DNA of 64,000 nucleotides from Arabidopsis thaliana (taxonomy: Eukaryota > Streptophyta > Magnoliopsida > Brassicales > Brassicaceae). The position numbers and the translations under genes were made by a program. Shown here one piece after another: positions 35,735 to 41,861 of the stretch. The stretch covers positions 14,825,261 through 14,889,260 of the forward strand of contig NC_003074.8 of the NCBI RefSeq assembly GCF_000001735.4. Reading direction: 5' to 3'. Positions within the stretch are counted from its first letter, which is position 1; each line of letters opens with the position of its first letter. The notes beneath the pieces are model-generated. The model saw nothing but the letters and a program-made list of their open reading frames with translations. It made no database searches and was not told the origin of the DNA.

Positions 35735-35982
35735 TGTTAGATATGACTTGAATTGGATTGGGCCCTTAACTTTAGGCATAATCAGTTTAGGGTTAATTAG
35801 GGTTTCTTTTGTATAAGTACTCTTCTTAACCTAACCTTCATGTATTCTGTACTCTGTTTTCTCAAGCAATAAAATCTGTCTCTTTGCCCGTGGACGTAGC
35901 CAACAACAAGTGTTGGTGAACCACGTTAAATATGTGTCGTGTTCTTTACGTTTTTGTTATCTTGCTCACATTTGTTATAACA
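35735..35982 (+). repeat. 5' LTR of the copia element
   Basis: It contains a TATA-like TATAAGTAC and an AATAAA signal (near 35870), so promoter and polyadenylation signals are visible. It is followed at 35986 by the primer-binding site. Confidence 0.95.
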
Positions 35983-35985
35983 AAC

Positions 35986-35997
35986 TGGTATCAGAGC
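35986..35997 (+). other. Primer-binding site (initiator tRNA-Met)
   Basis: TGGTATCAGAGC lies 3 bp after the LTR. It is the standard copia primer site complementary to the 3' end of initiator methionine tRNA. Confidence 0.9.
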
Positions 35998-36224
35998 ACA
36001 AGGTTCTTTGTTCTGTGTTCGTCGTGCGAATTTCGTGCAGTTTCAGATCCGTGCAAAATTCGTGTCAGAGCACAAGGTTTCCTTTTATGCGTTTCGTGCG
36101 ATTTTTGGGTTAAAGAAAGTTCGTGCAGATCTGTGTAGAAGAAGGTTTCGTGCAAAATCCGTGCAGAAAAAGTTTTGTGTAGAATCAGGTTCTAGGATTT
36201 CTGCGTTTGTAATCTGGTGAGAAG

Positions 36225-39200
36225 ATGTTTGCGATGAATGTGAAGATCGACAAGTTTTCTGGGAGAAACAGTTTCAGTCTCTGGCAGATTAAGATGCAAG
36301 CCCTGTTAAAGCAACAAGGCTTGTGGGCGCCGCTGTCTAATGACAGTAAAGGGAAGAGTGACGCTGCTGGGATGGTTGTCATGGAAGAGAAGGCACACTC
36401 CACAATCATGTTGTGTCTTGAAGATGAAGTCATCATTGAGGTTTCAGGAGAAACCACTTCTGCCAATTTGTGGAAGAAGTTAGAGAATTTGTATATGACA
36501 AAGTCTCTATAGAACAAGTTGATTCTGAAACGACGTCTGTTTGCATTAAGGATGCAAGAAGGTACGCCACTCAAAGATCACTTAGATCAGTTGAATTCAG
36601 TATTACTAGAGCTGCGTAATATTGATGTTAAAGTTGAAGATGAAGATGCTGCCTTGCTTCTGTTGGTATCTTTACCACTATCATATGAGAACTTTGTGGA
36701 ATCATTCATAGTGAATAAAGTTACAGTTACTTTGGAAGAAGTCAGATCTGCGCTTCACAGCAGAGTGTTGCGTCATCAGGCGGCTGGTACAGTTACAGAT
36801 TATCAAGCCTCAGGACTAGTAGCCAGTGGCAGCAGTGGGCTGGGACACGCTAAGAAGAACAGAAGCAGAAATGGTTTTTCTAAAAGTCCTAAGCAAGATG
36901 ATATCTGCTATTACTGTAAGGAGAAAGGGCATTAGAAATCAGACTGTCCCAAGAGGAAGCAACAAGGATCTGCTGCTGTAGCAGAAGATGACAATAAGTC
37001 TGAACATGATGTTGCTCTTGTGGCTGATGGAAACGCCCACAACTCTGATGTGTGGGTTCTTGATACAGGAGCATCATATCATATGTGTCCATGGAGAGAG
37101 TGGTTCTCAACTTATGCACAGGTAGAAAATGGCTGCATCAAGATGGCTAATAGTTCTGTCAGTCAGGTTGCTGGAATCGGCTCTATACAGATAAGGACAC
37201 ATGATGGCAGATTTTGCACACTGAACGATGTCAGACATGTTCCATCGATGGAAAAGAATTTGATATCACTAAGTCTGCTTGATAGCAGAGGTCTGAAATA
37301 TTCTGGTGGAGACGGAATTTTGCAGGTCTACCAAGGTTCTGATGTGATTCTGAAGGGTGTCATAAGTGGTACTCTGTATATACTACAGGGTTCACTGTTA
37401 TAGGCACATCGAATGTTGCATCTGCAGAGATTCACAAGGAGGATATGACTAAGCTATGGCATATGAGGCTTGGTCATATGAGTGAAAGAGGGATGCAAAT
37501 TTTGTCAAAGGAAGATCTTTTGTGTGGTCATGAGGTCAAGAGTCTTGAGTTCTGTGAGCATTGTGTGTATGGGAAGCTTCACCGTAGTAAGTTCCCTAAG
37601 GCTGTTCACATAACCAAAGGCACATTAGATTATATTCACTCTGATTGTTGGGGTCCAGCTCGAGTTGAATCTCTGGCAGGTCACAGATATTTTATGTCGA
37701 TGATTGATGATTATTCCAGGAAGACTTGGGTGATCATGCTAAAACACAAAAGTGAAGCTTTCAAGAACTTTAGGGAGTGGAAAATTTTGGTGGAAAATCA
37801 AACTGGAAAGAAGATCAAGAGGCTGCGGACAGACAATGGTCTGGAGTTCTGTTCATCAGAGTTCAATCAGCTGTGTAAGGATGAAGGGGCTGCTCGTCAT
37901 CACACTGTCAGAGATACCCCACACCAGAATGGTGTAGCTGAACGGATGAATCAGACATTACTGGAGAGAGCTAGGTGTATGCTCTCTAATGCTGGTTTAG
38001 AAAAACGGTTCTGGGCTGAAGCAGTAAGTACAGCCTGCTACTTGATAAATCGTGGGCCGCACACAGGAATCAAGTGCAGGACACCTGCAGAGATGTGGTC
38101 TGGTAAATCTGCTGATTACTCTAATCTTAAGATTTTTGGCTGCACAGTTTATTACCATGTAAATGAAGGTAAATTGGAGCCAAGAGCAAGGAAGGGAGTA
38201 TTTGTAGGCTATGGAGATAGAGTCAAGGGATTCAGGGTTTGGTCTCCATTAGAGAACAGAGTGATTTTGAGCAGGAATGTTGTCTTTGACGAAGTTTCTA
38301 TGCTCGGACGTTCAGAAAAGTCTACAACTACAGAAGAGAGCAGTAGTTTTGATAAACAGGTGGAGCTGACACCTAATCAGAAAGCTGATGTACAGAAACC
38401 AGAAGACAGCAAGGAGCTACAGGCAGCAGATGGGTCAGCTGACACTATCAAGCCAGAATTAAAACCTTACAGTATCGCTCAAAACCGAACAAGGAGGATT
38501 GGAGTTGGACCACCACAAAGATACGGTTATGAAGATATGGCAGGATTCTGTCTTGAGGATATGGCACGGTATGCTTTACAGGTTGCAGAAGAGGTGGATA
38601 CTCATGAGCCAACCACTTATCGAGAAGCTGTTTCATGGATTGAGGCTGAGAAATGGTTTGCTGCAATGGGAGATGAGATGGAATCTCACAGTAAAAATCA
38701 GACATGGGATTTTGTCAAATGACCACCAGGAAGAAAGATTGTTACTTGCAAGTGGATCTTCAAGATAAAGGAATGGATATCACCAGTTGAAAGGGTTAAG
38801 TACAAGGCTCGAGTTGTTGCGAGAGGTTTCAGCCAAAGAGAAGGGGTGGACTACAATGAGATTTTCTCACCTGTGGTCAGACACACTTCAATCAGGATGC
38901 TGCTAGCAATTGTGGCAAATCAGGACCTGGAACTTGAACAACTTGATGTTAAAACTGCTTTTCTACATTGTATATTAGAGGAAGAAATATACATGACTCA
39001 ACTAGATGGTTTACAAGTTCCTGGAAAGAAAGATCACGTCTGTAAGTTGAACAAGTCTCTATATGGACTCAAGCAGTCTCCCAGGCAATGGTACAAGAGA
39101 TTTGACAGCTATATGATGGAGCTGGGCTACAACAGAAGTCCGTATGATTGTTGTGTTTACATTAGCAAGCTGAAAGATGAATCCTACGTGTATCTGGTAC

Positions 39201-40135
39201 TCTATGTAGATGACATGCTAATAGCTGCCAAACTGATGTGTGATATTCAGAGATTGAAAGATCTGCTGAGTGCTGAGTTTGAGATGAAGGATCTGGGAGC
39301 AACAAAGAAGATTCTGGGGATGGAGATTCTGAGAGACAGAAATCAGAATAAGCTTTTCTTGTCACAGAAAGGCTACATTCAGAAGGTGTTGAACAGGTTT
39401 GGTATGTTATCAACAAAACCTGTTGACACTCCATTTGCTACTAATATCCATCTCACCATGTTTGCTCCTCAGTCTAAAGAGGACAAAGAGTATATGTCTC
39501 GGGTTCCCTATGCTAATGCTGTGGGAAGCTTGATGTATGCTATGGTCTGTACAAGACCAGATCTTGCACATGCAGTCAGTGTTGTCATCAGGTTCATGAG
39601 ACAACCAGGAAAAGAACATTGGCTTGCTGTGAAGAGGATTCTCAGGTACCTGAAAGGTACGTATGATGGTGGCCTCATATATGGAGGTGAGGCTCCTAGC
39701 CTGATTGCAGGAGATGTAGACAGCAGAAGATCAATGACTGGTTATGTGTTTGCCCTGGGTAATTCTGTAATTAGCTGGAAAGCAACTCTGCAGCCAACTG
39801 TGACGCTGTCAACCATAGAAGCAGAGTATATGGCTTTGACAGAAGCTGCTAAAGAGGGTATTTGGCTGAAAGGATTGGTCAGTGATATGGGTTTGCATCA
39901 AGATCAGGCTACAGTGTACTGTGACAGTTTGAGTGCGATCTGTTTAGCCAAGGATCAGGTTGATCATGAGAGGACCAAACATATTGATGTGAGATATCAT
40001 TTTCTGAGAAATGAGAAGAGGATTCAAGTGAAGAAGGTAGGGACTGTTGATAACCCTGCAGATATGTTCACTAAGCCGGTTCCTCATAGCAAGTTTAAAC
40101 ATTGTTTAGACTTGCTAAATATCTCAAGTTGTTAA
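36225..40135 (+). pseudogene. Copia gag-pol polyprotein, several stops
   Basis: The gag part starts at 36225 (KFSGRNSFSLWQIKMQALL). The CCHC knuckle reads CYYCKEKGH then a TAG where tryptophan is usual, then KSDCP. The protease has VLDTGASYHMC, and pre-integrase has LWHMRLGHMSERGM. The integrase catalytic triad is HSDCWGP, RTDNGLEF and NGVAERMN. The reverse transcriptase has [21 protein letters not shown] and YVDDM, and RNase H has [10 protein letters not shown] and [14 protein letters not shown], ending NISSC-stop at 40135. Lesions are TAG at 36510, TAG at 36933, a frame break near 37401 and TGA at 38720. RT and RNase H have an open frame after the last stop. Confidence 0.9.
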
Positions 40136-40136
40136 T

Positions 40137-40486
40137 CGCCCTGAAGGGCGAACAGGCCCCTAACGGGGCAAACAGGTCCCTGTAGGGACATCTGGCCTCT
40201 GAAGAGGCATAAGGCTCCTGATGGAGCATCTGGCCCCAGTGGGGCGTTCTGGCTTTTGATGAAGCATTCTGGCCCTGACGGGCGTTTTGGCTTCTGATGA
40301 AGCATTCTGGTCCTGACATACGTTCTGGCTTCTGGTGAAGCATCTGGTCTCTGATGAGGCATCAGGCTCCTTGTGGAGCAGTCTAGCTCGACAGAGCATC
40401 TGGCTTCTGAAGAAACATCTGGCTCAGCGAAGCATCTGTCTTGACGAAGCAGTTGGCTTGTAGGAGCATCTGGTTCCTGATGGGAC
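40137..40486 (+). repeat. Array of about 19 short hairpins, 19-bp period
   Basis: Units follow the form GNNNN-loop(4)-NNNNC separated by a spacer close to ATCTG. Each stem is self-complementary but differs from the next: CGCCC/GGGCG, GCCCC/GGGGC, GTCCC/GGGAC, GCCTC/GAGGC, GCTCC/GGAGC, GCTTC/GAAGC and so on. Starts fall at 40137, 40156, 40176, 40195, 40214, 40233, 40252, 40272, 40290, 40310, 40328, 40347, 40366 and 40386, and degrade after about 40403. The array lies between the pol stop and the 3' LTR, so it is in the 3' untranslated part of the genomic RNA. A 19-nt period is not a codon multiple, so it is not coding. Confidence 0.9.
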
Positions 40487-40680
40487 ATCTGAGGCAAAGG
40501 AGAATTCTGGTATGTCTGTCTGCTACATTTGGTTGGTACTTCTGGCATTGTGTTAATGTATCTGGTACAACAGTCTGGTAGCTGAATCTTGTACATCTGT
40601 CTAATGAGGAAGTCTCGTACAACACTGTGAGCAGTGTGTCAAGTACATCTATTTGGAGGATTCAAGTCAAGGTGGAGATT

Positions 40681-40929
40681 TGTTAGATATGACTTGAATT
40701 GGATTGGGCCATGTTATTTTAGGCCCAATCAGTTGAGCGTTAATTAGGGTTTCTCTGGTATAAGTACTTTTCTTAACCTAACCTCCATGTATTTTGTACT
40801 CTGTTTTCTCAAGCAATAAAATCTGTCTCTTTGCCCGTGGACGTAGCCAACAGCAAGTGTTGGTGAACCACGTTAAATCTGTGTCGTGTTCTTTACGTTT
40901 TTGTTATCTTGATCACATCTGTTATAACA
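40681..40929 (+). repeat. 3' LTR of the copia element
   Basis: It is preceded by the purine-rich tract AAGGTGGAGATT and starts TGTTAG. It differs from the 5' LTR at roughly 15-20 positions, mostly in the first 130 bp. Confidence 0.95.
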
Positions 40930-41861
40930 ACTAATTTTTGTTTTTAATTATTAATTTAGATCAAAATATATTTTGATTTCTAGCACACCCAAAATCATAT
41001 TTTAAATGTAATGTTAATTTTGTTTTAGTCAAGATATTTCAAAAAATGAAATTCTTGATCAAAAAAAAATTAATTTGAATATAATTTATTCCTTTATTTC
41101 AATTCTTTCATTTGGATAATGTGGTAAATTAAATATTTTAACATATATTGTGCTAAATATCATTTTTGTCAATATAAAAATAATCATTTTCAAAATTCAA
41201 TATCTGAAAAAATTGCCGCTTTATGCGTTTATTATCTTAAAAAAAATATTCTACCCACAACATTGGTTAAATCTTAAAACTAGTTGAAATATATATTAAA
41301 AACAAAAAAAAATATAACATATTCACCAACTACATTTTAAAAAGAATTTGGATTTTAGGGTGTATTGAACCTTACATTTTTAATGATCTGAGTTTTAGTG
41401 AGTTTTTATATGATTTTGATGATTTTTGGGAAGTTAATATGATTTATTGTAAAATCTTTCCAAATTCCATCTAAAACCATAAGATTTAGAATTCTGTATT
41501 TTTAACTAAATTTTTTTTTTCAAATCCTTCAAAATTAATAAGAATCAAATCCACAAGCTGTTTTCTAGTAGATTTTTAAATCATTAGTTCAATAACACTA
41601 GATTTCATTAGAGTTTTTAAGAAACTATGTTTGAATAACACAGAATTTGTAAATTTTACACAAATCACCTAAAATACTATATTGAATACATTCATCTTAG
41701 TTCAATCAAATTCTATTAAATTGAAAAAGCTTGAAGATCTAAGTTTTGTTTTTGGGTTTAAATTGAACCGTAAAGATTTGACTTTTAGCTTAATATACTG
41801 TCTTAAACTCTCTCTCTCTTTTTTTTCTTTATGTCTTCAGGTACCTCTAGTGAAGGGTTCA
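40930..41861. other. AT-rich intergenic DNA and upstream region of an F-box gene
   Basis: No gene is seen until the ATG at 41862. A pyrimidine-rich stretch with a CAG (41800-41840) just upstream could be the acceptor of a 5' untranslated intron. Confidence 0.5.

Follow-up and report, generated by a model that had tools for sequence, protein, structure and literature searches.

Why should a Copia retrotransposon carry, directly after its pol stop codon, a tandem array of small hairpins whose stems change from unit to unit while remaining paired? We address this question for an element at about 35735-40929 of a 64-kb stretch of Arabidopsis thaliana DNA (hereafter the window, whose positions are used throughout). 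The Pfam domains Retrotran_gag_2, gag_pre-integrs, rve and RVT_2 assign the element to Copia, as a reading of the letters alone (the sequence-only reading) had proposed, and the order gag - integrase - RVT_2, together with LTRs, a primer binding site and a polypurine tract, is that of Ty1/copia. The features on which the argument rests are the following.

35735..35982, plus strand: 5' LTR (TGTTAG...ATAACA), one of an LTR pair that is 6.5% divergent
35986..35997, plus strand: primer binding site TGGTATCAGAGC, read from the sequence
36513..40135, plus strand: gag-pol coding region in several open pieces, with Retrotran_gag_2, Pol_BBD, gag_pre-integrs, rve, SH3_retrovirus and RVT_2
40110..40129, plus strand: weak coding hairpin ACTTG..CAAGT (HP1 position), picked by eye at the site of a clade fold-z peak at -24 nt
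40133..40135, plus strand: pol stop codon TAA, read from the sequence
40136..40486, plus strand: array of 19 mini-hairpins, from unit parse, covariation and hairpin counts
40136..40245, plus strand: stop-proximal units 1-6 of the array, all perfectly paired, from the class-based parse and the fold score of 40136-40235
40660..40699, plus strand: stem around the polypurine tract, ATTCAAGTCA (40660-40669) with TGACTTGAAT (40690-40699, in U3) and the tract AGGTGGAGA as loop, from fold z and covariation
40681..40929, plus strand: 3' LTR, from the LTR pair

The primer binding site TGGTATCAGAGC presumably matches the initiator-Met tRNA, and the polypurine tract lies directly 5' of the 3' LTR start at 40681. 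The two LTRs differ by 8 transitions and 8 transversions out of 247. Since pol is interrupted, the window copy is defective, and because its 5-bp flanks mismatch by eye, no clear target-site duplication is seen around it.

To avoid presupposing any pairing, we delimited the array units solely by purine/pyrimidine class. This yields 19 units at 40136-40486, well above the three tandem copies that define an array between pol stop and 3' LTR, and the coordinates place all of them between the stop codon and the 3' LTR, where the sequence-only reading had put them. That reading also gave about 19 units on a 19-bp period, most of them forming hairpins; the number holds, and the fixed period does not, with units drifting between 17 and 20 nt by eye and TRF reporting periods of 38, 19 and 17. 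Eleven of the 19 units are perfectly Watson-Crick paired, with 10 distinct stems among them, and units 7, 10, 12 and 15-19 are imperfect. Stems run from 4 to 6 bp, loops from 3 to 4 nt, and the spacers are mostly ATCTG or ATTCTG. Perfect hairpins with a stem of at least 5 bp number 10 in the array, against a mean of 0.93 and a maximum of 4 in 1000 shuffles, and 350-nt tiles of the window off the array hold at most five. Perfect units crowd towards the stop codon (6/6 of the nearest against 5/13 of the remainder; chance 0.017, a post hoc comparison). The presence of an array of hairpins in the window is thereby confirmed. Rfam covariance models gave no match at E <= 1 across 39900-41000, and membership of the array region in an Rfam family is rejected on that result. 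A separate repeat was also noted, at 405-780 of the window and at 1128-1299 of a related locus (L025), with spaced hairpins of CACTCGACC..GGTCGAGT type and a nearly constant stem.

A search of the 119,662,809-base assembly, in which the window is C3:14825261-14889260, found two further internal copies besides the window copy (A), and all three carry arrays. Copy B, at C2:4.11 Mb, has 13 parsed units, 3 of them perfect, between LTRs that are 7.4% divergent (11 transitions, 7 transversions). At C2:4.70 Mb, copy C (L047) shows rearrangement and contains two arrays: a second one beyond the pol end (24 parsed units, 11 perfect) and an inner one (31 parsed units, 9 perfect) that sits where copy A encodes reverse transcriptase. 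The reverse-transcriptase stretch was undetected in copy C, and at the search sensitivity used its inner array has no second genomic site. The 3' LTR of copy C is truncated, and a stretch of LTR plus flank is duplicated there (992 bp, 96.6% identical). The LTR search returned three additional stretches, which we read as solo LTRs.

The claim that both arms of the hairpins change together is borne out when covariation is judged by pair counts and by permutation of the arms. In the window array 59 of 70 inner pairs are Watson-Crick, whereas 5000 re-dealings of the 3' arms give a mean of 42.4 and a maximum of 55; when each distinct unit is counted once, the support weakens to 44/55 against a mean of 32.0 and a best re-dealing of 44. 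For the four arrays together the count is 239/340 (mean 181.5, maximum 209 after re-dealing), or 145/244 against a maximum of 143 once identical units are collapsed. A 14-nt alignment, made of all units of that length from the four arrays (34 distinct, or 37 with repeats, of 87 parsed), has 92.9% of its cells paired, and sliding the partner by 1-3 columns lowers pairing to 34-49%. Its covariation score was reached by 0/500 shuffles, and its proportion of doubly changed pairs (4/5) was equalled by 154/500; because array units, like the elements compared below, share kinship, such shuffle counts are not probabilities. Deliberate diversification of adjacent units was considered and rejected, the difference from random order being not significant (P 0.09-0.54).

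A different possibility is that the array offers binding sites at the DNA level to a protein of the element or of the host, which would act against silencing or on chromatin. Repeated motifs with a conserved spacer are what such sites would look like; repeats with conserved spacers occur in other plant transposons, and the tandem motifs of VANDAL transposons are bound by VANC proteins. However, the stems change freely while staying paired, so that no fixed stem motif is kept, and a stable cruciform needs arms longer than 5 bp. We regard DNA-level sites as very unlikely. A still fainter prospect, scarcely credible to us, is that the array encodes a repeated antisense peptide. The window does hold a 168-codon antisense open frame over 40132-40638, and Retand elements have antisense ORFs in the corresponding region, according to the part of the Retand survey consulted (PMC11963269). 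The frame is not kept, the longest antisense frame reaching 104 codons in copy B and 106 in copy C, and a 19-nt unit cycles through all frames. With the three plus frames also closed in A, B and C, a coding role for the array is rejected.

The substitutions themselves separate stems from loops in kind rather than in amount. Across the 11 standard units among the 19 of the window, divergence is 0.320 per site in stems and 0.345 in loops; differences between units comprise 176 transitions and no transversions in stems and 32 transitions and 44 transversions in loops, these pairwise counts sharing ancestry and not being independent events. Transversions are common in this family, as the LTR pairs indicate (8:8 in A and 11:7 in B, transitions to transversions). 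By eye count, the three middle positions of the 5' arm show seven of the eight possible combinations of C and T, which requires repeated change or exchange between units. Transition-only change in paired stems is the pattern expected from G·U intermediates. The class-based parse penalises transversions and so biases towards such stems; the sole compensated transversion at inner positions in the four arrays is GCCTG/CAGGC. Changes after insertion are of another kind: in the aligned A and B arrays, the stem differences read by eye include transversions too.

The chief rival to selection on RNA is a mutational origin, in which slippage of reverse transcriptase duplicates units and template switching within quasi-palindromes corrects them into perfect hairpins; we consider it somewhat unlikely. 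The sequence-only reading had named this neutral alternative, and the transition-only stems disfavour it, since copying of one arm from the other should fix transversions as readily (0 in window stems against 44 in loops). Perfect window stems are moreover held at 4-6 bp next to unpaired spacer. What keeps the alternative alive is the strand symmetry of the exceptions to pairing. RNA selection should favour T·G over C·A, so the near-equality of the two kinds of exception among array units (41 T·G, 33 C·A; p = 0.42) counts against it, and an RNA-strand signal in the mismatches is rejected. Decay after insertion, which the LTR divergence of A and B reflects, would add both types of exception alike and may hide a strand bias.

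Folding of the array is likewise uneven. The sequence-only reading had proposed a comparison with shuffled controls, and the whole 350-nt array folds only slightly better than they do (z -1.51; 7/100 equally good), whereas the first 100 nt after the stop (40136-40235) fold far better (z -4.23; 0/200 shuffles equal). The next 110 nt (z -0.92) and the last 141 nt (z -0.22) do not stand out, and the fold signal is clearly confined to the stop-proximal 100 nt. That distal units fold no better than shuffles is a point for the mutational origin. Counting against an RNA signal, these first 100 nt also fold well when read on the minus strand (z -3.00), nearly at the plus-strand level.

We then turn to related Copia elements. 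Of the 574 candidates in the pol search 90 were scored, and 3' ends were obtained for 89 of the 91 matches listed; the stop codon could be located in 83 elements among the matches listed, 29 in the clade of the window element (49-100% identical to the window pol piece) and 54 outside it. Six partial elements were dropped for want of a located pol end (L025, L055, L056, L068, L073 and L074), in five other partial elements the stop was placed by hand, and where a copy is damaged, as L065 is, the original stop may not be the one first met downstream of the match. A stop-proximal hairpin was defined by a stem of at least 5 pairs with at most one G·U, an energy of -4 kcal/mol or better and a position between -12 and +30. 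Such a hairpin is found in 19 of the 29 clade elements against 4.9 expected from shuffles, and in 14 of the 29 it overlaps the stop codon; examples are CTGAGTAATGGACTCAG (L015, stop TAA inside), CTGAGAGGTAATTCTCAG (L016) and CTGAGCGGTGGAGCTCAG (L024). The binomial value of 7e-9 for 19/29 assumes independent elements, and the members are related, some as near-copy pairs (L006/L007, L008/L010, L016/L019, L018/L031 and L028/L080). Taken singly, clade elements are mostly weak (best-hairpin p 0.01-0.67).

The ten clade members that fall short of this definition are of several kinds. L027, L029 and L065 have tandem hairpins further downstream or a weaker first one, L007 carries the array, and in L008, L010, L067 and L072 a clear stop hairpin was not seen. 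Sets of tandem hairpins at 28-32-nt spacing occur in L011, L021, L027, L029 and L065. In the pol tree, which is midpoint-rooted for drawing only and whose forks above the window family are weakly supported, the window family adjoins two groups, each with hairpin-bearing members. Beyond the clade, 19 of the 54 other Copia elements have a hairpin against 4.9 expected; 7 of these 19 are near-identical copies, which we take to be ONSEN, and some of the hairpins overlap the polypurine tract. In one further Copia group (L059, L060, L062, L063 and L069) a hairpin of TAAACYG..CRGTTTA type directly precedes the polypurine tract, and its first three bases are the stop TAA; the L059 version is imperfect and fell outside the hairpin definition. 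Two scans of a viral contig collection found no relative. In a genome contig collection, at least 16 distant Copia stretches lie in prokaryote records and are probably contaminants; among ten of these 3' ends inspected by eye, a possible stop hairpin is seen only in L118, where the frame is uncertain.

Stems of the clade hairpins also change in a compensatory manner. Twenty-three hairpins picked for likeness to CTGAG..CTCAG, representing 15 of the 29 clade loci, were aligned; 4/6 pairs are changed on both sides, and the covariation score was reached by 0/500 shuffles; left out of this set were L006, L007, L008, L010, L013, L018, L020, L022, L026, L029, L031, L067 and L072, the near copy L080 and the middle unit of L065. 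The mean fold-z profile of 20 elements shows a peak at the stop codon (-1.31 at 0 and -1.44 at +12), with values from -0.61 to +0.25 between +24 and +132 and from -1.03 (at -36) and -0.92 (at -144, coding) up to +0.42 in the remaining bins. A further peak, at -24 nt, falls on the last pol codons (mean z -1.86; 16/20 elements below -1). At this HP1 position covariation is rejected, with 67/500 shuffles scoring as high in the single group tested (7 rows), and the window's own fold of 40110..40129 does not pair ACTTG with CAAGT.

Two marks of a conserved cis hairpin are thus found in the clade, an excess at the pol stop and compensatory stem changes, and a third, an excess of G·U over A·C on the transcribed strand, is not found in the array units. 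The sequence-only reading had held that relatives with no array would make this one a local slippage product. A long array was not seen in the related Copia 3' ends read among the matches listed; its restriction to this small family fits a mutational origin, as does the part consulted of the Retand survey (PMC11963269), where arrays between pol and the 3' LTR are described as frequent in Retand, reported also from other retrotransposons and of unknown origin and function. Many of these relatives, however, carry 1-4 small hairpins at the corresponding site, with stems that change in pairs, which argues that the array is more than local slippage, and the recurrence of covarying hairpins at one site in distant families counts against a mutational origin. 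The earlier interpretation of the array is accordingly partly supported.

Since covarying hairpins occupy the same site in related families, the array seems to be an expanded version of a stop-proximal hairpin that predates it. Array-unit stems and the CTGAG-type stop hairpin differ by eye and have only their position in common, so that descent of the units from such a hairpin is suggested by position and not by sequence. That a structured RNA element at the pol stop of a plant Copia clade underwent lineage-specific amplification to give the array is, in our judgement, close to an even call.

A second conserved structure may belong with the stop hairpin. Window positions 40655-40705 fold with z -2.44 (3/200 shuffles equally good) into a stem with one arm at the end of the 3' UTR, the other at the beginning of U3 and the polypurine tract in the loop between them, and 14 of the 29 clade members share it (the window element, L011, L013, L014, L016, L018, L020-L022, L024, L026, L027, L058 and L065, in a register aligned by eye). 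In these 14 rows 97.6% of cells are paired, a percentage raised by the choice of rows for a visible stem; sliding the partner lowers pairing to 16-42%. Four of the six pairs show two-sided changes and none a one-sided change, and the covariation score was reached by 0/500 shuffles. One measure runs contrary: there are 4 further standard pair types, fewer than the shuffled mean of 6.4. A 17-row version with L009, L012 and L015, which are out of register and contribute chance pairs, gave the same verdict; by eye, these three have a similar inverted repeat in a shifted register. Outside these rows, the near-identical L032-L034, L048-L050 and L052, which we take to be ONSEN, have a 15-bp perfect stem around the tract. 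Its 3' arm can also pair with a repeat further downstream, a pairing that is not the best hairpin in L052.

What might such structures do? The hairpins plausibly act in cis on the full-length RNA, as a putative signal. Arabidopsis Copia elements produce a short gag mRNA by splicing and premature termination, and the full-length gag-pol RNA of EVD is mostly nuclear and distinct from it, as described in the part of the study consulted (PMC8892269). Because this spliced mRNA ends upstream, cis action would concern full-length RNA only. A 2025 review, likewise consulted in part, describes plant LTR retrotransposons as generally without introns and EVD as exceptional (PMC12786077), so a short gag mRNA is not assured in the array family. 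An array would offer Gag, or a host protein, many copies of a putative site. Where a hairpin overlaps the stop codon, ribosomes terminating there would melt it, and it would then fold only on RNA that is not under translation, a condition that a packaging signal would fit best and nuclear export next. Taken by itself, either role is on the unlikely side, packaging being doubtful and export of a retained full-length RNA slightly more so. As a tentative possibility, we propose a Copia cis RNA module at the 3' end of pol, made up of stop hairpin and tract stem; in the family of the window element, multiplication of the stop hairpin would have produced a multivalent array by which full-length RNA, as opposed to the short gag mRNA, is singled out for packaging or export.

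The same placement could instead reflect a role in termination, or in protection from the nonsense-mediated decay that a long 3' UTR invites, rather than packaging or export. The overlap with the stop codon in 14/29 clade members, the greatest fold strength at 0 to +12 nt and the superior folding of the window units nearest the stop are all in keeping with this role. It accounts poorly for hairpins lying beyond the stop, as in the window family, L011, L021, L027, L029 and L065, and a readthrough frame is absent, the three plus frames being closed in array copies A, B and C. We judge this explanation improbable and favour a putative recognition site on the full-length RNA, with packaging ahead of export. 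A short covarying hairpin at a fixed place in many clade members offers a concrete candidate to disrupt and re-pair, and the array is a natural series of paired variants in one RNA, which helps to separate structural selection from template-switch correction.

Several known systems resemble parts of this picture. Plant RNA viruses have stop-proximal structured elements for readthrough or decay resistance. The hairpins described here are like them in lying at or just past the stop codon and unlike them in that array copies A, B and C are without a readthrough frame. Another comparison is with RNA transport elements, of which the CTE of MPMV has a 3' position. Cis elements that export full-length RNA are described for mammalian LTR elements, in the parts of two sources consulted, as the CTE of MPMV and SERV-K/MER11, the IAP RTE and the musD MTE (PMC11379458, PMC12786077). 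By analogy, the Copia structures would be a putative cis RNA element on a full-length RNA that must exit the nucleus unspliced, the likeness in nuclear retention resting on EVD, another Copia element. Likened by description alone, the two differ in that many short hairpins stand here in place of one long folded element.

The closest systems are the arrays of other plant LTR retrotransposons. Macas et al. in 2009 reportedly described tandem-repeat arrays between pol and the 3' LTR in such elements. Our array is like those of the Retand survey (PMC11963269, consulted in part) in its location, in its family-specific tandem repeats and in having a function that is unknown in print. It is unlike them in its Copia host, in that each unit is its own hairpin with covarying arms and in that relatives often have 1-4 hairpins at the site; the Retand arrays are compared here by description, and the words 'hairpin' and 'secondary structure' are absent from that survey. 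A literature search over titles and abstract openings of open-licence papers found no covarying hairpin arrays, stop-overlapping hairpins or tract stem of this kind. Tandem arrays at the site between pol and the 3' LTR are already known, and the covarying hairpin array is a new form of them.
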